A stretch of DNA of 64,000 nucleotides, taken from Chryseobacterium sp. G0186 (GTDB lineage: Bacteria > Bacteroidota > Bacteroidia > Flavobacteriales > Weeksellaceae). The DNA lies in contig NZ_CP033918.1 in assembly GCF_003815675.1 (NCBI RefSeq), positions 4,836,001-4,900,000 on the forward strand. Direction: 5' to 3'. The notes beneath the pieces were generated by a model that was not told where the DNA came from, made no database searches, and saw only the letters and a program-made list of their open reading frames with translations. The first letter of the stretch is position 1; each line of letters begins with the position of its first letter. Positions 2,548-60,739 of the stretch are shown in pieces. A program made the translations under genes and the position numbers.

Positions 2548-4908
2548 ATGTTGATTTATAGATTAAAAAACTACTTTTTTCTTTTAACGTTTTTATTGGT
2601 TTCTGTCCCTGTTTTTTCTCAGACTACCCCTGATCGAAAAAAGATAAGACACAGGCCATCTTCGGAAAGTTTGAGGGCTGGAAACTTTATAGATGTAAAT
2701 GATCTTAATTATGTTGCCTCAACTTATTCTCCTGAACAACTGGTAAAAGATATTTTGATTAATGGTGGATCCACCTGTACGACGGCTAATGTAACCAATG
2801 TTACAGTAAGTCCTGACCATGGCGTTGATAATGAGACCAGATTTTGGGGATACTTCAATAAAGGAACGGCAACTTTTCCGTTTACAGATGGAATTGTACT
2901 GACAACAGGGCACGCAAGAGATGCAGGGAATGGTTTTATAGGATTATTAAGCAAGACCATAGGTACCGGAAGTGATCCGGATCTTGTAGCAGCAACCAAC
3001 CCTATCGTTGAGCTGAAGGATGCCGTAGCCCTTGAGTTCGACTTTGTTCCCAATTCTACCCAGGTAAAATTCAATTATATTTTTGCATCAGAAGAATATG
3101 ATTCAGATTTTCCTTGTACAGGTGGATTTTCAGATGCTTTTGCACTTCTGCTAAAAAAGGTGGGAGATCCAACTTATACCAATCTTGCAATCTTGCCAGG
3201 TGGAGCAGGCCCGGTAAGTGCAACTAATATTGTGCCTGCAGGTAACGGCTTTAGCTGTGGTCCTATCAATGAGGCTTACTTTGGAGGAATGAATAACCCG
3301 CATGTCGGTATTAATTATTATGGAAAAACAGTTCCGTTAACTGCAATTGCAGATGTAATTCCGGGGCAAACCTATCATTTTAAATTGGTCCTTGCAGATG
3401 CAAAAGATAATGGCCATGATTCTGCCGTTTTTCTTGAGGGAGGCTCATTTGATATTGGTATTAAAATCGTGGATGAAACCGGAGCAAGCTTACCGGCAAG
3501 CATCAATATGTGTGACAATACCCCGAAACCATTAAAGGCTCAACTGGCAGCCGTTCCTGGAATGACTTTTCAATGGTATAAGGATGGGGTTTTGATTCCT
3601 GGAGCCACCAATTCTTTATATACAGCGACTCAGCCGGGAGTCTATACGGTAACAGTAATGATTCCGGGTAATCAATGTCCTAGTGAAGCTAAGGTTACTA
3701 TTGTTGGCGGAACAAGTCCTACCGTACAAAATGCAGTACTGAAGCTGTGTACAACACCTACAGTGAATACCTTTAATTTATTGGCAGCACAGCCTATGAT
3801 TAGTACAACACCGGGTGCTTTATTCCGTTTTTATGCAAATCAGGCAGATGCACAGGCTCAGAATAACAGCTATATTCCTAATTTAACAAACTATAACGGA
3901 ACAGATGGTCAGGTATTGTATGTTTTGGTTTCCAATGGAGCGTTTTGTAGTAGAATTGCAACAATGACTTTACACAAAGAAGAAACTCCTGTGGTGAAAC
4001 TTAATGCTGCGAAACTAAAGATTTGTTTAGGTGAGTCTGTTTTATTAACAGCTTCGGGTGGGGTAACTTATGAGTGGAGTGATACTTCTGATACGGGAGG
4101 GACAAGAACCGTAAGTCCAACCAAGACTACTACTTATACCGTTTATGCGATCGGGGCACAAGGTTGTAAATCATTACAATCTGCTCAGGTTACCATTGAA
4201 GTGGTACCAGCAATAGTTTCTGTTTTGAAGGGTGGACATATCTGTGAGGGAGACAGACTCCTTTTAGATGCCGGTTCTGGACCCGGATATACTTATCAAT
4301 GGAGCACGGGACAGACAACCCAGACTATTACAGTAGATAAACCGGGAGAATATACAGTGACAATCAGCAATGGAGTGTGTTCAAAGGAATTTAAGACGCA
4401 GGTTATCAGAGCTGTTATTCCTGCGATCATCAATGTTGATTATAATGATAAAGGAACCATGGTTCTTACGGCGAGTAACCCAAGTAAAGGAATATTGGAG
4501 TATTCAATAGATAACGGGATTAACTGGCAGTCTTCCAATGTATTTACCAACGTACCTAAAAATAAGGTGATTACCATTCGTGTAAGAGTGAAATATACAA
4601 GCTGCGAAGGTTATCTTGAGTTCTTTACCTTTGTGATGAAAAATGTAATTACTCCCAATGGAGATAATATGAATGATATTATTGATTTCAGAGGAGTGAG
4701 CGGATATAAGGATTTCAGTGGTAAGGTTTTCGACCGTTACGGAAAAGAGGTGTTCAGAGCCGAAAAGATAAGGCCTTATTGGGATGGTTATTTTCAGGGG
4801 AAACGATTGCCTACAGCATCCTATTGGTATCAGGTTACTTACGAAGATCCTGCCAGTAAGCTGCTTACTGTGAAAACCGGATGGATATTGCTGAAAAATA
4901 TAGAATAA
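2548..4908 (+). CDS. choice-of-anchor L surface protein with T9SS type B C-terminus (copy 1)
   Basis: A 786-residue exported protein. A signal peptide (about 1-25, ending VFSQ) leads to the RAGNFIDVN motif and a choice-of-anchor L domain (about 60-300) with its marks FPFTDGIVLTTG, FNYIFASEEY, LPGGAGPVS and YHFKLVLAD. Ig-like modules follow (about 315-690) with repeated K(I/L)CxGESV...TTTYTVYA strands. The last 88 residues (699-786) are a gliding-motility-associated, T9SS type B sorting domain: ITPNGDNMND, FDRYGKEVF, SYWYQVTYED, GWILLKN. Such proteins cross the outer membrane by T9SS and act at the cell surface or in the medium, often in adhesion; the ligand is unknown. It is the first of three adjacent paralogues, each transcribed alone. 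Confidence 0.9.
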   Translation: MLIYRLKNYFFLLTFLLVSVPVFSQTTPDRKKIRHRPSSESLRAGNFIDVNDLNYVASTYSPEQLVKDILINGGSTCTTANVTNVTVSPDHGVDNETRFWGYFNKGTATFPFTDGIVLTTGHARDAGNGFIGLLSKTIGTGSDPDLVAATNPIVELKDAVALEFDFVPNSTQVKFNYIFASEEYDSDFPCTGGFSDAFALLLKKVGDPTYTNLAILPGGAGPVSATNIVPAGNGFSCGPINEAYFGGMNNPHVGINYYGKTVPLTAIADVIPGQTYHFKLVLADAKDNGHDSAVFLEGGSFDIGIKIVDETGASLPASINMCDNTPKPLKAQLAAVPGMTFQWYKDGVLIPGATNSLYTATQPGVYTVTVMIPGNQCPSEAKVTIVGGTSPTVQNAVLKLCTTPTVNTFNLLAAQPMISTTPGALFRFYANQADAQAQNNSYIPNLTNYNGTDGQVLYVLVSNGAFCSRIATMTLHKEETPVVKLNAAKLKICLGESVLLTASGGVTYEWSDTSDTGGTRTVSPTKTTTYTVYAIGAQGCKSLQSAQVTIEVVPAIVSVLKGGHICEGDRLLLDAGSGPGYTYQWSTGQTTQTITVDKPGEYTVTISNGVCSKEFKTQVIRAVIPAIINVDYNDKGTMVLTASNPSKGILEYSIDNGINWQSSNVFTNVPKNKVITIRVRVKYTSCEGYLEFFTFVMKNVITPNGDNMNDIIDFRGVSGYKDFSGKVFDRYGKEVFRAEKIRPYWDGYFQGKRLPTASYWYQVTYEDPASKLLTVKTGWILLKNIE

Positions 4909-54266: not shown

Positions 54267-56516
54267 ATGAACCGTATTTTTTTAGTATTTCTGATGATGA
54301 TGTCAAGTCTTGTTTTTTCTCAGAATAAATTGAATGTAATTCCTTATCCTCAGAAAGTTGAGTTTTTAAAAGGTGATTTTATAATTCCTGAAACATTAAT
54401 TTTAGGTAATGATTTGCCCAAACAGGAAACAAGCTATTTTAAAAAACGCCTGAATTCTATTTTAAAGTTTAAAAATTCTGGAAAATCAGATGTTCAGTTG
54501 GTTTATATCCAATGGCCAAAGACTGTTGTAGGGAAAGAAGAATCATACCGTATTGAAATTTCTTCCAAGCACATTAAAATAGAATCTTATACACAACAAG
54601 GATATTTTCTGGCTCTTCAAACATTAATTCAGTTATTTGAAAACTATCATGGTGAAAATAAAATTCCTGCGATGAAGATTGAAGATCAGCCGAAGTTTGC
54701 ATGGCGCGGAATGCATCTGGATGTCTGCCGTCACTTCTTTACAGTTGATGAAGTGAAGCAGTATATTGATTATCTGGCGATGTACAAGCTGAATACCTTT
54801 CATTGGCATTTAACCGATGACCAGGGATGGAGAATTGAAATTAAAAAATATCCAAAGCTTACCCAAATTGGTTCAAAACGTAAAGAATCCATGATTGGAG
54901 CTTATGTGGATAATACATTTGACGGAAAACCTTACGGACCTTATTTTTATACCCAGGAGCAAATTAAAGATGTTGTTAAATATGCCCAGGAAAGACATAT
55001 TACCATTGTTCCGGAGATTGAAATGCCCGGTCATGCTTTAGCTGCATTATCTGCCTATCCGGAGCTGGCATGTACAAAAGGACCTTTTGAAGCCGCTACA
55101 AAATGGGGCGTCTTCGATGATGTATTTTGTCCTAAGGAAGAAACATTTACATTTTTGGAAAACGTTTTGGATGAGGTTGCGCAGCTGTTTCCGTCCCAAT
55201 ATATCCACATTGGAGGTGATGAATGTCCGAAAACACGATGGAAAGAATGTGCCCATTGCCAGGAGCTCATCAGGAAAAATAATTTAAAGGATGAACATGG
55301 TTTGCAAAGTTATTTTATCCAAAGAATTGAAAAATATCTGAATAGTAAAGGGCGAAAAATTATTGGCTGGGACGAAATTTTAGAAGGGGGACTGGCTCCC
55401 AATGCTGCTGTAATGAGCTGGACAGGAGTAAACGGAGGTATTGAGGCTGCAAAATCAAAGCATTTTGCAGTCATGACGCCGGGTGCCTATTGCTATTTTG
55501 ATCATTATCAGGGCGATCCGCAGTCAGAACCCAATGCTATTGGAGGTTTTACACCGTTGGAAAAAGTGTATTCCTATAATCCGATTCCTGATGAATTGAA
55601 TGCAGAGCAGGCAAAATACATTCTGGGAGTTCAGGCTAATCTATGGACAGAATATATTCTGGACTTTAAGCAGGTTCAGTATATGATATTTCCAAGATTG
55701 ATGGCACTTTCGGAAGTAGGATGGGGAACTTCAGATCCTAAAAATTATAAGGAATTTGAAAACAGGGTTATCCGTCAGTTTAAGATTTTGGATAGGATGA
55801 AAGTGAATTATGCCAAAAGCATTTATAATATTTCAGGAAAGGTAATTGCGGCTGATAAAGGGATTGCCTATGAGCTTTCAACCTCACAGGATGTCAACGG
55901 AATAAGGTATACTCTGGATGGAACAATACCAACAATAGACTCTAAAACATATCATAATCCTGTTTCAATTCCTGGCTCTCTAACCATAAAATCTGCTTAT
56001 TTTGAAGACGGACAACTGAAAAGCGCAGTTTCTTCACAGCAATTTACCGTTTCAAAAGCAACAGGGAAAAATATCATTTTAGAGCAACAACCCAACGAAA
56101 ACTATTCTTTTGGAGGAGCTTTCACTCTGGTAGACGGAATTTTGGGTAATCCGAGACAGCTTGGTAAAACATGGCTTGGCTTTCAGGGAAAAGACGTAGT
56201 GGCAACCATAGATTTTGGTCAGAAAACAGGATTTTCAGAGGTTTATTTTAATACACTGGAAAATAAAGGCAGCTGGATTCACCTTGCGAAATCTGCTCAA
56301 ATTTTCGTTTCCGATGACAATAAAAATTTTAAAATGATCAAGGAAATAGGAAAGGAGGAAATTCAAAATTCCAAAGGAAAAATCCAACTGAATCTAGGTC
56401 CGCAAACCTCAAGATATCTGAAAGTGAAAATAGAAAATGCAGGAATTATTCCAGCCGGAAACCCGGGTGCAGATTCTAAAGCATGGCTGTTTGTTGATGA
56501 AATTGGCGTAAATTAG
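54267..56516 (+). CDS. beta-N-acetylhexosaminidase (GH20)
   Basis: A 749-residue exported glycosidase. Signal peptide 1-19 (ending VFSQ), GH20 N-terminal domain (about 20-140), then the catalytic TIM barrel (about 144-490) with FAWRGMHLDVCRHFF, FHWHLTDDQGWRIEIKKYPKL and the catalytic pair Asp318-Glu319 in HIGGDEC. NLWTEYI lies near the barrel's end. A CHB_HEX-like Ig domain (about 530-610) and a discoidin-like domain (about 625-749) follow. There is no T9SS sorting domain, so it is probably periplasmic or outer-membrane associated. It releases terminal GlcNAc or GalNAc from glycans or chitin fragments. The Crp/Fnr gene follows after 20 bases and may share the transcript. Confidence 0.94.
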   Translation: MNRIFLVFLMMMSSLVFSQNKLNVIPYPQKVEFLKGDFIIPETLILGNDLPKQETSYFKKRLNSILKFKNSGKSDVQLVYIQWPKTVVGKEESYRIEISSKHIKIESYTQQGYFLALQTLIQLFENYHGENKIPAMKIEDQPKFAWRGMHLDVCRHFFTVDEVKQYIDYLAMYKLNTFHWHLTDDQGWRIEIKKYPKLTQIGSKRKESMIGAYVDNTFDGKPYGPYFYTQEQIKDVVKYAQERHITIVPEIEMPGHALAALSAYPELACTKGPFEAATKWGVFDDVFCPKEETFTFLENVLDEVAQLFPSQYIHIGGDECPKTRWKECAHCQELIRKNNLKDEHGLQSYFIQRIEKYLNSKGRKIIGWDEILEGGLAPNAAVMSWTGVNGGIEAAKSKHFAVMTPGAYCYFDHYQGDPQSEPNAIGGFTPLEKVYSYNPIPDELNAEQAKYILGVQANLWTEYILDFKQVQYMIFPRLMALSEVGWGTSDPKNYKEFENRVIRQFKILDRMKVNYAKSIYNISGKVIAADKGIAYELSTSQDVNGIRYTLDGTIPTIDSKTYHNPVSIPGSLTIKSAYFEDGQLKSAVSSQQFTVSKATGKNIILEQQPNENYSFGGAFTLVDGILGNPRQLGKTWLGFQGKDVVATIDFGQKTGFSEVYFNTLENKGSWIHLAKSAQIFVSDDNKNFKMIKEIGKEEIQNSKGKIQLNLGPQTSRYLKVKIENAGIIPAGNPGADSKAWLFVDEIGVN

Positions 56517-56536
56517 CAACTATTGAATTTTACAAA

Positions 56537-57172
56537 ATGCAAGACACGATACTTTCCTCAGAATTTTCATCATCACCGGAACTGGTTGAAAAGTTATACC
56601 AATATGGCATCACCAAGAATTACCATGAGGGAGATGTCATTTTAGATGAAAACGCTTCCATACGTTCTATTCCCATTGTGATGAAAGGAATGCTGAAAGT
56701 GATCAGGACTGAGGATGACGGACGTGAAATTCTGTTGTACTATATCAAGGCCGGAGAAAGCTGTATCATGTCTTTTCTGGGCGGGATGCACAATGAAAAA
56801 AGTATCGTAAGGGCTGAAATAGAAGAAGATTCTGAAATTCTCTTTCTTCCCTTAGATAAGGTTTCCCTATTCATTAAAGAACATCCGGAATGGCTGGATT
56901 ATATTTTCAGACTTTATCATAAACGTTTTGAAGAATTACTGGATATCATTAATGCCATTGCTTTTAAAAAGGTAGATGAAAGACTCTTGAATCTCCTTAA
57001 TAAAAAAGCAGAAATTACAGGTTCAGAGATTATCAATACTACCCATGAACAGCTTGCTAATGAACTTGGAACCGCCAGAGTTGTAGTTTCCAGACTCCTG
57101 AAGCAACTTGAAGAAGACGGAAGGGTAAAACTAGGAAGAAATAAAATTACCCTTCTGAAAATCATCGATTAA
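56537..57172 (+). CDS. Crp/Fnr family transcriptional regulator
   Basis: A 211-residue regulator. The cNMP-binding-type sensor domain covers about 20-135 (EGDVILDENASIRSIPIVMKGMLKVIR, REILLYYIKAGESCIMSFLGGM). A long dimerisation helix leads to the Crp-type helix-turn-helix (about 160-205; THEQLANELGTARVVVSRLLKQLEEDG). Only one or two Cys residues are present (Cys74 in AGESCIMS) and the N-terminal Fnr iron-sulfur cysteines are absent, so this is not an oxygen-sensing Fnr; a thiol or persulfide switch at Cys74 is possible but speculative. Placed just before the sulfur genes, and a repeated 20-bp site downstream fits its control of them. Confidence 0.9.
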   Translation: MQDTILSSEFSSSPELVEKLYQYGITKNYHEGDVILDENASIRSIPIVMKGMLKVIRTEDDGREILLYYIKAGESCIMSFLGGMHNEKSIVRAEIEEDSEILFLPLDKVSLFIKEHPEWLDYIFRLYHKRFEELLDIINAIAFKKVDERLLNLLNKKAEITGSEIINTTHEQLANELGTARVVVSRLLKQLEEDGRVKLGRNKITLLKIID

Positions 57173-57289: not shown

Positions 57290-57309
57290 TATGTAACAAA
57301 AGTAGCTGT
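57290..57309 (+). promoter_or_regulatory. putative Crp/Fnr operator upstream of the TauE gene
   Basis: TATGTAACAAAAGTAGCTGT, identical to 58160-58179. The core TGTAAC-AAAA-GTAgct is a decayed palindrome. A CATTTTTG -7-like box ends at 57336, 27 bases downstream, which places the site centre near -41. Confidence 0.65.
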
Positions 57310-57357
57310 AGCTCTTTCCAAATATTTCCATTTTTGTAATCAGAAAGAAAAATTACA

Positions 57358-58152
57358 ATGGAAATTATAGGATATATAGCATCAGTTTTAATAGGAGTTT
57401 CTTTAGGATTAATAGGTGGAGGCGGAAGTATTCTTACAGTTCCGGTCTTGGTTTACCTATTCAGGATCGACGCCTTACTGGCAACAGAATATTCACTTTT
57501 TATAGTAGGAATCAGCAGTACGGTAGGCTCGTTATCCTATTTGAAAAAAGGATGGGTGGATCTTAAAATATCATTGGTATTTGGAATTCCCTCCATTATT
57601 TCAATTTTTCTTACCAGAACCTACTTACTCCCGTTAATTCCTGATGAATTGATTCAAATACAAAGCTTTATCATCACAAAGAACATTTTTTTATTATTAA
57701 TTTTTGCAGGTTTAATGATTCTGGCTTCCTATAAAATGATTCGGAGCAGAACTTCGGTTGAGGTATTGGAGCGTCGTTCAGCTAAGGAAAATACTTTGCT
57801 GGCAGTGGGAGAGGGAACATTGGTAGGAATTTTAACAGGATTGGTAGGTGCTGGAGGAGGCTTTATGATTATTCCTGCTCTCGTTAATCTTTTAAAAGTT
57901 CCAATGAAAACTGCTATAGGAACTTCGTTGATAATTATTTCCCTAAACTCCCTGATTGGTTTTACGGCTTCGATGAACCACGCTGAGATAGATTGGAAGT
58001 TATTGATATCCATTGCTTTTATTGCCGTGATTGGAATTATTATGGGTACTCAGCTATCAAGAAAAATTAAAGGTGAAAAACTGAAGCCGGTATTTGGATG
58101 GTTTATTTTAATCATGGGTGTATATATCATAACCCGGGAAATATTTCTTTAA
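57358..58152 (+). CDS. sulfite exporter TauE/SafE family protein
   Basis: A 264-residue inner-membrane protein with about eight helices in two repeats. Each repeat begins with the family's glycine-rich loop: IGVSLGLIGGGGSILTVPVLVYL (about 12-34) and VGILTGLVGAGGGFMIIPALVNLL (about 158-181). TauE-type proteins export sulfite or related organosulfur anions. In the Staphylococcus cst operon a TauE protein works with CstA and CstB in sulfide and persulfide detoxification, and the neighbours here support that setting. It has its own promoter with the 20-bp site. Confidence 0.92.
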   Translation: MEIIGYIASVLIGVSLGLIGGGGSILTVPVLVYLFRIDALLATEYSLFIVGISSTVGSLSYLKKGWVDLKISLVFGIPSIISIFLTRTYLLPLIPDELIQIQSFIITKNIFLLLIFAGLMILASYKMIRSRTSVEVLERRSAKENTLLAVGEGTLVGILTGLVGAGGGFMIIPALVNLLKVPMKTAIGTSLIIISLNSLIGFTASMNHAEIDWKLLISIAFIAVIGIIMGTQLSRKIKGEKLKPVFGWFILIMGVYIITREIFL

Positions 58153-58159
58153 ATCTTCC

Positions 58160-58179
58160 TATGTAACAAAAGTAGCTGT
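58160..58179 (+). promoter_or_regulatory. putative Crp/Fnr operator upstream of the CstB-like gene
   Basis: Exact copy of the 20-mer at 57290. A GAAATTTG -7-like box ends at 58206, again 27 bases downstream, so both promoters share the same geometry. Confidence 0.65.
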
Positions 58180-58235
58180 GGAGGAAGATAAAAATAGAGA
58201 AATTTGTATCAGATAACAACATAAAGATAATTAAA

Positions 58236-59648
58236 ATGAAAATAGAACAGATTTATACAGGATGTTTGGCTCAGGGGGCTTATTATATTACGTCGGGAGG
58301 AGAAGCAGCGATCATCGATCCGCTACGCGAAACACAGCCCTACATTGAAAGACTGAAAAAAGACGGAGTTCAATTAAAGTACATTTTTGAGACCCATTTT
58401 CACGCAGATTTTGTCAGTGGGCACCTTGATTTAAGCAGAAAAACAAATGCATCTATAGTCTACGGACCAACAGCACAAACTGAATTTGATGCGATCATTG
58501 CTGAAGATCAGCAGATATTTGAAATCGGTGATGTTAAGATAAAGGTACTTCATACACCGGGGCATACCCTGGAAAGCTCCTGTTATTTGCTGATTGATGA
58601 ATCCGGAAATGAAACGGCTCTTTTTAGCGGTGATACTTTATTCCTCGGAGATGTGGGGCGCCCGGATCTTGCTCAGAAATCGGCAGACATGACCCAGAAT
58701 GAGCTTGCAGGTTTGCTGTATGAAAGTTTATACCACAAAATTTTGCCATTAGCCGATGAGATTACAGTGTATCCCGCTCATGGGGCAGGCTCTGCCTGTG
58801 GTAAAAATATGCAGAAGGAAACCCTTGATACCCTGGGAAATCAAAAGAAAACCAATTATGCATTGAATCAAAAAGATAAGGAGAGCTTCATAAAAGAGGT
58901 AACGGACGGACTTTTGCCACCCCCGGCCTATTTCGGAATGAATGTAATGATGAATAAAAAAGGATATGATAGCTTTGATGAGGTATTATCCCAAGGATTA
59001 CAGCCTCTTGTTCCGGAACAGTTTGAAGAAATTGCAGAAGTTTCAGGCGCTTTAATCTTAGATGTAAGAAGTAATGGTAGGTTTGCCGAGGGCTTTATCC
59101 CACAATCTGTAAACATAGGATTGGATGGCGATTTCGCCCCTTGGGTAGGTGCCCTAATTGTAGATGTGAACCAGCCCATTTTACTGGTGACCGAAAAAGG
59201 AGAGGAAGAAGAAGCGGTAACCAGACTAAGCAGAGTAGGGTTTGATAAGGTATTAGGATTTTTGGAAGGAGGCTTTGATGCATGGAAAAAAAGTGGAAAA
59301 GAAACTGATGCCGTCCATCGTATTTCTCCGGAACAGTTTGAAAAGGAAATACATCAAAAAGAAGTAAAGATTATAGACATACGAAGAGAAAGCGAGTACA
59401 ACGCCGAACATATTCACGAAGCGTACAGCAAGCCTTTGGCCTACATCAATGAATGGCTTCATACCATAGAACCGGAAGAGCATTTTTATATGCATTGTGG
59501 GAGTGGTTACAGAAGTACAATGGCAGCAAGTATTCTTCAGGCAAGAGGGTATAGAAACTTTACCGAAATTGAGGGAGGCTTTAGAGCCATTTCTCTCACC
59601 AGTATTCCTAAAAGTGATTTCGTGTGTCAGACTAAGATTTTAAAATAA
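58236..59648 (+). CDS. CstB-like persulfide dioxygenase-rhodanese fusion
   Basis: A 470-residue cytoplasmic protein of three parts. Residues 1-250 are a metallo-beta-lactamase-fold dioxygenase with THFHADF (His54, His56, Asp58), TPGH (His110), SGD (Asp133) and YPAH (His182). Residues about 262-355 are a rhodanese-like domain whose active loop (around LLVTEKGEE, 316-324) lacks cysteine, so it is a pseudorhodanese. Residues about 365-460 are a complete rhodanese with the loop HCGSGYRS and Cys421. This order matches S. aureus CstB, which oxidises low-molecular-weight persulfides and yields thiosulfate. The fifth residue after His54 is Phe where ETHE1-type enzymes have His. It follows a promoter with the shared 20-bp site and leads into the YeeE pair. 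Confidence 0.9.
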   Translation: MKIEQIYTGCLAQGAYYITSGGEAAIIDPLRETQPYIERLKKDGVQLKYIFETHFHADFVSGHLDLSRKTNASIVYGPTAQTEFDAIIAEDQQIFEIGDVKIKVLHTPGHTLESSCYLLIDESGNETALFSGDTLFLGDVGRPDLAQKSADMTQNELAGLLYESLYHKILPLADEITVYPAHGAGSACGKNMQKETLDTLGNQKKTNYALNQKDKESFIKEVTDGLLPPPAYFGMNVMMNKKGYDSFDEVLSQGLQPLVPEQFEEIAEVSGALILDVRSNGRFAEGFIPQSVNIGLDGDFAPWVGALIVDVNQPILLVTEKGEEEEAVTRLSRVGFDKVLGFLEGGFDAWKKSGKETDAVHRISPEQFEKEIHQKEVKIIDIRRESEYNAEHIHEAYSKPLAYINEWLHTIEPEEHFYMHCGSGYRSTMAASILQARGYRNFTEIEGGFRAISLTSIPKSDFVCQTKILK

Positions 59649-59664: not shown

Positions 59665-60228
59665 ATGTTGGAGATAATAAAAGAACCGTGGCCATGGTAT
59701 ATTGCAGGCCCTTTGATTGGATTGACTGTTCCTGCCTTGTTGATTATGGGAAATAAATCCTTTGGAATAAGTTCCTCACTAAGGCATATCTGTGCCGCCT
59801 GTATACCAGCCAATGTCAATTTTTTTAAATACAATTGGAAAAAAGAAGCCTGGAACCTGTTTTTTGTGCTGGGAATTTTCTTCGGGGGAATGATTGCAGC
59901 CAATTTTATGCTTAATCCATCCGAAATAACGGTCAATCCCAATCTGAAAACCGAGTTAGCCGGCTATGGAATTACAGATTACAGTAACCTTGTTCCCATT
60001 CAACTCATGAATTTTCAAAGTCTCCTTACTTTGAAGGGCTTTATCATTATGGTCGTTGGCGGATTTTTGGTAGGCTTCGGAACAAGATATGCCGGAGGAT
60101 GTACCAGTGGTCATGCCATTATGGGGCTTTCTAACCTGCAATGGCCGTCATTAGTAGCAACGGTGTGTTTTATGATAGGAGGGTTTTTAATGGCCAACCT
60201 TATTCTGCCAAAAATCCTTTCCCTATAA
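59665..60228 (+). CDS. YeeE/YedE family half-transporter 1
   Basis: A 187-residue inner-membrane protein with about five helices. It has the YeeE/YedE signature GGCTSGHAIMGLSNL with Cys146 and a CAAC pair (Cys43, Cys46) in the first loop. YeeE (TsuA) proteins import thiosulfate through a path lined with cysteines; here the protein is split in two, as in the PmpA/PmpB pairs linked to beta-lactamase-like hydrolases. The start is 16 bases after the CstB-like gene, so it is in the same operon. Confidence 0.9.
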   Translation: MLEIIKEPWPWYIAGPLIGLTVPALLIMGNKSFGISSSLRHICAACIPANVNFFKYNWKKEAWNLFFVLGIFFGGMIAANFMLNPSEITVNPNLKTELAGYGITDYSNLVPIQLMNFQSLLTLKGFIIMVVGGFLVGFGTRYAGGCTSGHAIMGLSNLQWPSLVATVCFMIGGFLMANLILPKILSL

Positions 60229-60250: not shown

Positions 60251-60739
60251 ATGATAAAAGAAAAAGAACAGAACGTTCGTCATCAGGACGCGGTTTGTAT
60301 AAACGAAAGCAGTCTTAAACATCAATGGTATCATCATTTGAAATACCTTGCTGCAGGAATTGTATTTGGAATTATATTCGTAAAAGCAGAAGTTATCAGT
60401 TGGTTCAGAATTCAGGAAATGTTCCGTCTGCAGTCTTTTCATATGTATGGTATCATCGGAAGTGCTGTGTTGGTAGGAATGATCTCGGTGTTTCTGATTA
60501 AGAAATTCAATATCAAAACAATCTATGGGGAACCTATTACACTGACTCCTAAAAAATTCAGTAAAGGACAGATTTACGGAGGATTGATTTTCGGTTTTGG
60601 CTGGGCTATTACAGGAGCCTGTCCCGGCCCGCTCTTTGCTCAGATCGGAACAGGAGCCCTGGCTGTATCTGTTACCCTATTAAGTGCCATTGCCGGAACC
60701 TGGGTATATGGATATTTCAGAGATCAATTACCTCATTAA
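60251..60739 (+). CDS. YeeE/YedE family half-transporter 2 (DUF6691-like)
   Basis: A 162-residue inner-membrane protein with about four helices (about 33-50, 66-84, 108-125 and 135-155), the second half of the pair. The signature GWAITGACPGPLFAQIGTG carries Cys124, the counterpart of the Cys in the first half. A soluble N-terminal tail (1-30) includes Cys16. The two halves probably form one channel for thiosulfate or another sulfane sulfur compound; direction of transport cannot be read from the sequence. Last gene of the operon. Confidence 0.88.
   Translation: MIKEKEQNVRHQDAVCINESSLKHQWYHHLKYLAAGIVFGIIFVKAEVISWFRIQEMFRLQSFHMYGIIGSAVLVGMISVFLIKKFNIKTIYGEPITLTPKKFSKGQIYGGLIFGFGWAITGACPGPLFAQIGTGALAVSVTLLSAIAGTWVYGYFRDQLPH

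Follow-up and report, generated by a model that had tools for sequence, protein, structure and literature searches.

Two identical 20-bp sites before sulfur genes of Chryseobacterium as probable class II operators of an adjacent Crp/Fnr-family protein

Introduction

The class II promoters of E. coli CRP follow the -41.5 rule, and their sites have the form TGTGA-N6-TCACA. Within the recognition helix R180ETVGR185 of this protein, Arg180 contacts G2, and Arg185 together with Glu181 contacts the G4:C4 pair of TGTGA (PMC11253593, in the part available).

A second group of described systems is formed by the sensors of persulfide and sulfane sulfur, namely FisR, BigR, CstR, SqrR, OxyR and MarR-type proteins (PMC7315123 and PMC9774590, both available in part). 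Furthermore, the Crp of A. baumannii, which is 50% identical to E. coli Crp and has a cysteine opposite the ligand pocket, was found to be persulfidated in sulfide-exposed cells (accessible part of PMC7315123). Among the best matches in the open-licence PMC literature, no paper on the regulator described here, or on any regulator of sulfide/persulfide detoxification in Bacteroidota, was found.

Here, we describe a locus of Chryseobacterium sp. G0186, located in a window of 64,000 nucleotides (the whole stretch of DNA analyzed), in which one 20-mer occurs in two sulfur-gene promoters next to the gene of a Crp/Fnr-family protein. Like the class II CRP promoters of E. coli, the locus combines a TGTRA-N6 half-site, a site centre of -41.5 (from predicted starts) and a regulator of the Crp family, and both arginines of the E. 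coli helix are also present in the helix here (contacts from the available part of PMC11253593). In contrast to E. coli, the promoters carry the -7 box of Bacteroidota and no -10, a valine at the Glu181 position goes along with TGTAA instead of TGTGA, and the site has a conserved downstream arm, GTRRCnGTA, which is no mirror image. The known persulfide sensors resemble the locus in controlling genes of sulfide/persulfide detoxification and in their cysteine chemistry, which is predicted here; however, all of those listed above belong to other protein families than this Crp, and CstR and SqrR use several cysteines (PMC9774590, in part), whereas the regulator here has one.

The feature is real and conserved. 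The best explanation is that the 20-mers are two operators of the adjacent Crp/Fnr-family protein, which would be a class II activator of the TauE and the MBL-rhodanese-YeeE genes, and we hold this to be likely. In kind, they would be a further case of the known class II activator sites of the Crp family. If this is right, Bacteroidota would gain a minimal, testable regulon of two promoters and probably four genes, for which the regulator can be named, the operator is exact, the start sites are predicted and one residue is a candidate sensor.

Genes of the Locus

The features of the locus are collected in Table 1. As the first-pass annotation of this DNA had it, the Crp/Fnr gene lies directly upstream of the first operator copy.

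Table 1. Genes, operators and promoter boxes of the locus, in window coordinates.
Feature	Position	Strand	Basis or remark
Crp/Fnr-family regulator gene, 211 aa, one cysteine (Cys76)	56537..57172	+	Pfam PF13545 and PF00027, alignment, fold model
Operator copy 1 (20-mer)	57290..57309	+	predicted centre -41.5 of the TauE promoter; conserved in orthologs
-7-like box CATTTTTG	57329..57336	+	predicted transcription start ~57341; box position from PMC9723704 (available in part)
TauE/SafE-type permease gene	57358..58152	+	Pfam PF01925
Operator copy 2 (20-mer)	58160..58179	+	predicted centre -41.5 of the MBL-rhodanese promoter; conserved in orthologs
-7-like box GAAATTTG	58199..58206	+	predicted transcription start ~58211; box position from PMC9723704 (available in part)
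Metallo-beta-lactamase (MBL) fold and two rhodanese stretches	58236..59648	+	Pfam PF00753, PF00581
YeeE/TsuA-type sulfur transport half 1	59665..60228	+	Pfam PF04143
YeeE/TsuA-type sulfur transport half 2	60251..60739	+	Pfam PF04143, PF20398

None of the five proteins of the locus scored above the cut-off of an NCBIfam equivalog model. Therefore, the MBL-rhodanese protein is described as persulfide-dioxygenase-like from its domain make-up, the Blh model (persulfide dioxygenase-rhodanese) giving 63.9 bits against a cut-off of 625. Since the gap is only 16 nt, the first YeeE/TsuA half is presumably in one transcript with the MBL-rhodanese gene before it, and the second half presumably belongs to this transcript as well. 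The genome has another MBL-rhodanese gene (68%) at a distance from crp, and the 250 nt before this gene contain no operator.

On the other side of crp lies a glycoside hydrolase family 20 gene, with 20 nt between its end and the regulator gene (both within 54267-57172), an order also found in L006, L008, L012, L014, L015 and L016. Due to this short gap and the order kept in relatives, crp may be read together with the glycoside hydrolase gene.

The 20-mer and Its Promoter Geometry

The 20-mer TATGTAACAAAAGTAGCTGT is present in two exact copies, 870 nt apart, at the places given by the first-pass annotation, and the second copy begins 7 nt past the TauE stop codon. A third match with up to three mismatches was found neither in the window nor in 100 dinucleotide shuffles. 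The whole genome of 5,038,771 bases gave five matches at this threshold, two exact and three with 3 mismatches, compared to one match for the 20-mer read backwards. Two of the inexact matches fall within long open frames, and the remaining one lacks a TTTG at the proper distance.

Two identical copies at such a short distance might also be a dispersed repeat or a recent duplication without a regulatory role. A dispersed repeat, which the first-pass annotation had named as the result that would speak against an operator, is rejected, because the genome contains these two exact copies only. Against a duplication stand the unlike sequences between 20-mer and box, since in the 38 loci with both sites the 18-nt spacers differ in 12.0 letters on average, as well as a promoter distance that is constant across genera. 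The probability of either is therefore practically negligible. Within the same 38 loci, the two sites of a pair are identical in 14 cases; shuffling gave 3.7, and none of 5000 shuffles was as high, with relatedness remaining in the shuffle. A further candidate, a direct repeat (GTARC twice, 9 nt apart), was set aside because many relatives have a palindrome at that place.

In both promoters the TTTG of the -7-like box follows 24 nt past the end of the 20-mer (starts 57333 and 58203), exactly as annotated before. The added remark that the bases between differ completely is slightly too strong: they are mostly different, but 20-mer and box are separated by 19 nt, of which 6 agree. For F. psychrophilum a TAnnTTTG box at -12 to -5 has been described (PMC9723704; for promoter geometry see also PMC7366714 on johnsoniae; both available in part). 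Applying this position to the locus predicts the starts listed in Table 1 and centres both 20-mers at -41.5, in line with the earlier estimate of about -41; the 20-mer would then span -51 to -32.

Architecturally, the 20-mer consists of an upstream half TGTAA, a 6-nt spacer and a diverged downstream half TAGCT. It ends where the -33 element would be, with the TTTG of the -7 box 24 nt on and a non-consensus first base of this box. In conservation, the downstream arm GTRRCnGTA comes close to the upstream half, yet it does not mirror it. We tentatively suggest that the arm at the -33 place could serve both the Crp dimer and sigma region 4.

Within the window, NAnnTTTG boxes in the 13-90 nt in front of 43 mechanical ORFs (at least 150 aa each) were counted by their first base, which gave T 11, A 3, C 1 and G 1, compared to T 3, A 2, G 2 and C 2 in an inside-gene control. 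The single C and the single G must belong to the two operator promoters, since both lie in the scanned stretch.

Conservation of Site and Spacing in Relatives

As relatives, the best 80 of 584 loci from a scan with the MBL-rhodanese protein were used, and 80 further stretches were added, picked from Crp matches and motif places in genomes; these sets come partly from the same genomes and were merged by identical sequence only. A Crp of at least 64% identity is present in 65 loci (window included), which represent 59 unique sequences. Sites were scanned with nine scored conditions at a fixed distance from a -7-like box. Downstream of crp, a full-score site was found for 56 of the 59 unique orthologs and one scoring one below in L201, and no good site was present there in L198 and L202 (2 of 59). 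Neither the 107 reversed windows nor the 1949 random segments contained a full-score site, and 27 of the 1949 reached one below.

The spacing was counted over sites that match TG[TC][AG]AC-N4-GT-N2-C and are followed after 30-260 nt by a mapped TauE, MBL-rhodanese or YeeE gene, identical 87-nt stretches being merged; sites without such a gene (e.g., L172 copy 1, L019 at 5380, L020, L196 and L215) were excluded. For loci with this Crp, 94 non-redundant sites remained, before TauE (51), MBL-rhodanese (40) or YeeE (3) genes. TTTG is found at offset 24 in 89 of them, and at any other offset in 5 at most; other Bacteroidota loci have it at offset 24 in 47 of 61 sites. This spacing and the box at -12 to -5 place the sites in class II at -41.5, with the starts being predicted.

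The first base of the -7 box is C in 46, G in 43, T in 4 and A in 1 of the 94 sites. Among the other loci with TTTG at 24, it is T in 30, G in 8, C in 5 and A in 4. It had been proposed that a weak first base fits activator dependence. Within this regulon the weak base recurs, with C or G in 89 of the 94 sites, but activators of this kind do not share it in general, since all 22 loci of the sister clade described below have T. It therefore characterizes this regulon and not all such sites.

The same data bear on an opposite role, in which this Crp would be a repressor that covers about -51 to -32, blocks RNA polymerase and is released by reactive sulfur. SqrR and BigR, both persulfide sensors, are repressors. 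CstR, another known persulfide sensor, is likewise named a repressor in the title of a reference in PMC7315123 (available in part), and the 20-mer overlaps the -33 region. Nevertheless, a repressor site needs no single exact distance, as opposed to the fixed spacing at -41.5 seen here, and the C or G that opens the -7 box at 89 of the 94 sites fits a promoter needing help. Repression is thus regarded as unlikely, and activation stays the preferred role.

On genome level, the motif TGTAACAAAAGTRGCNGT was found at 50 places in 26 of 148 genomes of the family, with 0 for the backwards control. The orthologous Crp is present in 47 of the 148 (counted by hand from the match list) and together with the motif in 24, which corresponds to a Fisher p of 1.3e-12, uncorrected for relatedness. 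In one set of 41 of these places, a TauE, MBL-rhodanese(-like) or YeeE gene follows after 62-186 nt in 40 cases, and TTTG is at the expected place in 39 of the 41. The sole motif place before other genes is in G067:C6, and the remaining 9 all precede TauE or MBL-rhodanese(-like) genes. The enrichment upstream of sulfur genes, for which the first-pass annotation had suggested a search, thus amounts to 49 of 50 places. Within a phylum sample of 296 genomes, to which this genome and six others of its family also belong, TGTAACAAAAGTRGCNGTA was found in 2 genomes outside the family (backwards control: 1); both have this Crp (81% and 78%) with a TauE and an MBL-rhodanese(-like) gene beside it. Site, spacing, the -41.5 centre and the linkage to the Crp gene hence hold across many genomes.

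The loose pattern TGTAACNNNNGTNRC gave 26 matches in the own genome compared to 20 for the backwards control, therefore this search says little about a wider regulon. One of its matches, at window position 2790-2805, lies within a 786-aa frame (2548-4908).

Some relatives show variations of the arrangement. G119 (L186, L191, L213) and G135 (L184, L212, L214) have three crp-TauE copies each, with sites, and for some of these copies the second target is YeeE or a distant MBL-rhodanese-like gene. At L215:1215-2070, a Crp site stands before an OsmC-like gene and a rhodanese gene, with no TauE there. A Crp clade of 58% identity (L205, L232, L233, L234) has no site downstream of crp; a GTAAC-N4-GTTAC palindrome is present about 200-420 nt upstream. 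Five loci of one genus of the family (L192, L227, L228, L230, L231) have the perfect palindrome AAATGCAACTTAAGTTGCATTT at the place of the TauE promoter, and their helix is also RVVVSR.

The Recognition Helix and the Operator Half-Site

The recognition helix of the regulator is TARVVVSR, and within its RVVVSR part Val182 takes the position of E. coli Glu181. In E. coli CRP, Val or Leu at position 181 relaxes the preference for the base pair contacted there. The residue at this position was compared with the half-site in Crp-operator pairs. For this, 107 Crp rows were reduced by 10 without a good site (L198, L202, L205, L232, L233, L234, L251, L040, L049, L045) to 97, which represent 90 unique pairs. 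A TGTGA-type half-site is present in 0 of 53 pairs with V, 27 of 29 with E, 4 of 5 with A, 1 of 1 with S and 0 of 2 with T. The two pairs with E that lack it are L084, whose site has a low score, and L207, whose site is real; in the T case L220, the TauE site is TGTAAC and the second site TGTGAC. The operator letters track the recognition helix of the Crp, and the loci form a natural data set in which one helix residue and one operator base pair change together.

A tree was made from 88 pairs, additionally leaving out L066 (cut-off Crp) and L084 (no clear site). Explaining the residue on this tree takes 9 changes, compared to 5 for the half-site state. The independent pairs on starred branches number 2, which are concordant or undecided and never opposed. 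Because independent changes are too few, the sign test has no power.

These letters also bear on whether a different regulator, e.g., another Crp-type protein of the genome, reads the 20-mer. There are 11 Crp-like matches in the genome, and in G098 and G105, which lack a Crp of at least 64% identity, the motif precedes an MBL-rhodanese-like gene of 33%. However, this Crp is present in 24 of the 26 motif genomes, and the site letters follow the helix of this very protein, which makes another reader of the site very improbable. The 20-mer is very likely an operator of the adjacent Crp.

The Regulator Protein and Cys76

Membership of the regulator in the Crp/Fnr family is clear from PF00027 (42.1 bits) and PF13545 (45.2 bits), both above cut-off, and its nearest named relatives are Chryseobacterium entries. 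A structure model of the monomer has a CRP fold (mean pLDDT 86.6), for which Foldseek returned 4ev0 as best match (E 3.9e-16) besides many CRP structures. With the CRP equivalog model the regulator reaches 48.7 bits against a cut-off of 266 and is thus not identified as an ortholog of the cAMP-dependent CRP. The residues of E. coli CRP that bind the cAMP phosphate are Arg82-Ser83; aligned by eye, Lys88-Ser89 of the regulator may correspond to them. The Crp of A. baumannii resembles it as a Crp-family protein with a cysteine, sulfur uptake by Cys76 being predicted here, and differs from it with regard to this low CRP score and to the linkage of the regulator gene with its targets.

Cys76 is invariant in all 34 aligned proteins, as would be expected for a persulfide sensor, and is the sole cysteine in 55 of 59 unique orthologs. 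In the model it lies just before a short helix (77-84), which comes after strand 64-71, a place that we take to be the phosphate-binding cassette of cAMP-dependent CRPs (E. coli numbering). A cysteine is aligned at the same position in 3dv8, the best solved relative by sequence. It is also present in a 34% paralog of the genome that adjoins a DUF5777 gene, and the cysteine alone is therefore no sign of sulfur sensing. An own-genome control by tblastn recovered 5 of 10 paralogs, two of which do not span the region. Cys76 thus marks a subfamily, and a role in sulfur chemistry is suggested by the linked genes.

Mechanistically, the Crp/Fnr protein is predicted to bind each 20-mer at -41.5. Both promoters would be weak alone, and the bound dimer would contact RNA polymerase. 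A build-up of reactive sulfur would lead the Crp to turn on the TauE and MBL-rhodanese-YeeE genes. With less certainty, Cys76 would be modified by a reactive sulfur species such as persulfide or polysulfide, which would be the signal. In the boldest form, the one-cysteine Crp/Fnr proteins of Bacteroidota would be a new class of persulfide-responsive activators, in which Cys76 takes up the sulfur, while the operators and the residue at the Glu181 position have evolved together, like in the classic specificity changes of CRP; we put this forward tentatively, at somewhat less than an even chance.

It is also conceivable that the Crp activates via the 20-mer in response to another signal than persulfide on Cys76, e.g., sulfite, thiosulfate, a nucleotide or a redox change. 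The cysteine in the DUF5777-linked paralog and in 3dv8 would fit this, and the TauE and YeeE genes point to sulfite or thiosulfate as easily as to persulfide. On the contrary, the invariance of Cys76 and its standing as sole cysteine, as well as a linked enzyme with the domains of persulfide dioxygenase-rhodanese fusions, speak for persulfide. We give such another ligand a real, slightly less than half, probability.

The DUF5777-linked paralog is the Crp of L263 (G000:C1:2527751-2528302). It has one cysteine and a Glu at the Glu181 position, and the DUF5777 gene follows its own gene. Between both lies TGTGATAAAAGTCAC, with TTTG one nt further out than at the window sites, which may be a chance match.

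A Sister Clade in the Same Family

Within the same family, a sister Crp clade of 48-53% identity is present (L206-L211 and L235-L250 minus the 58% loci; e.g., L239, L210). Its crp is followed by a small gene, which gave a rhodanese match at 15 of the 22 loci. Like the regulator here, the proteins have one cysteine (20 of 21 unique proteins), and downstream of their crp lies an operator whose distance to TTTG is the same (21 of 21). In contrast, the helix is ITREA[TV]SR or ISREATSR, the operator is mostly TGTRAYnnnnRTYAC, and the -7 box is TAnnTTTG.
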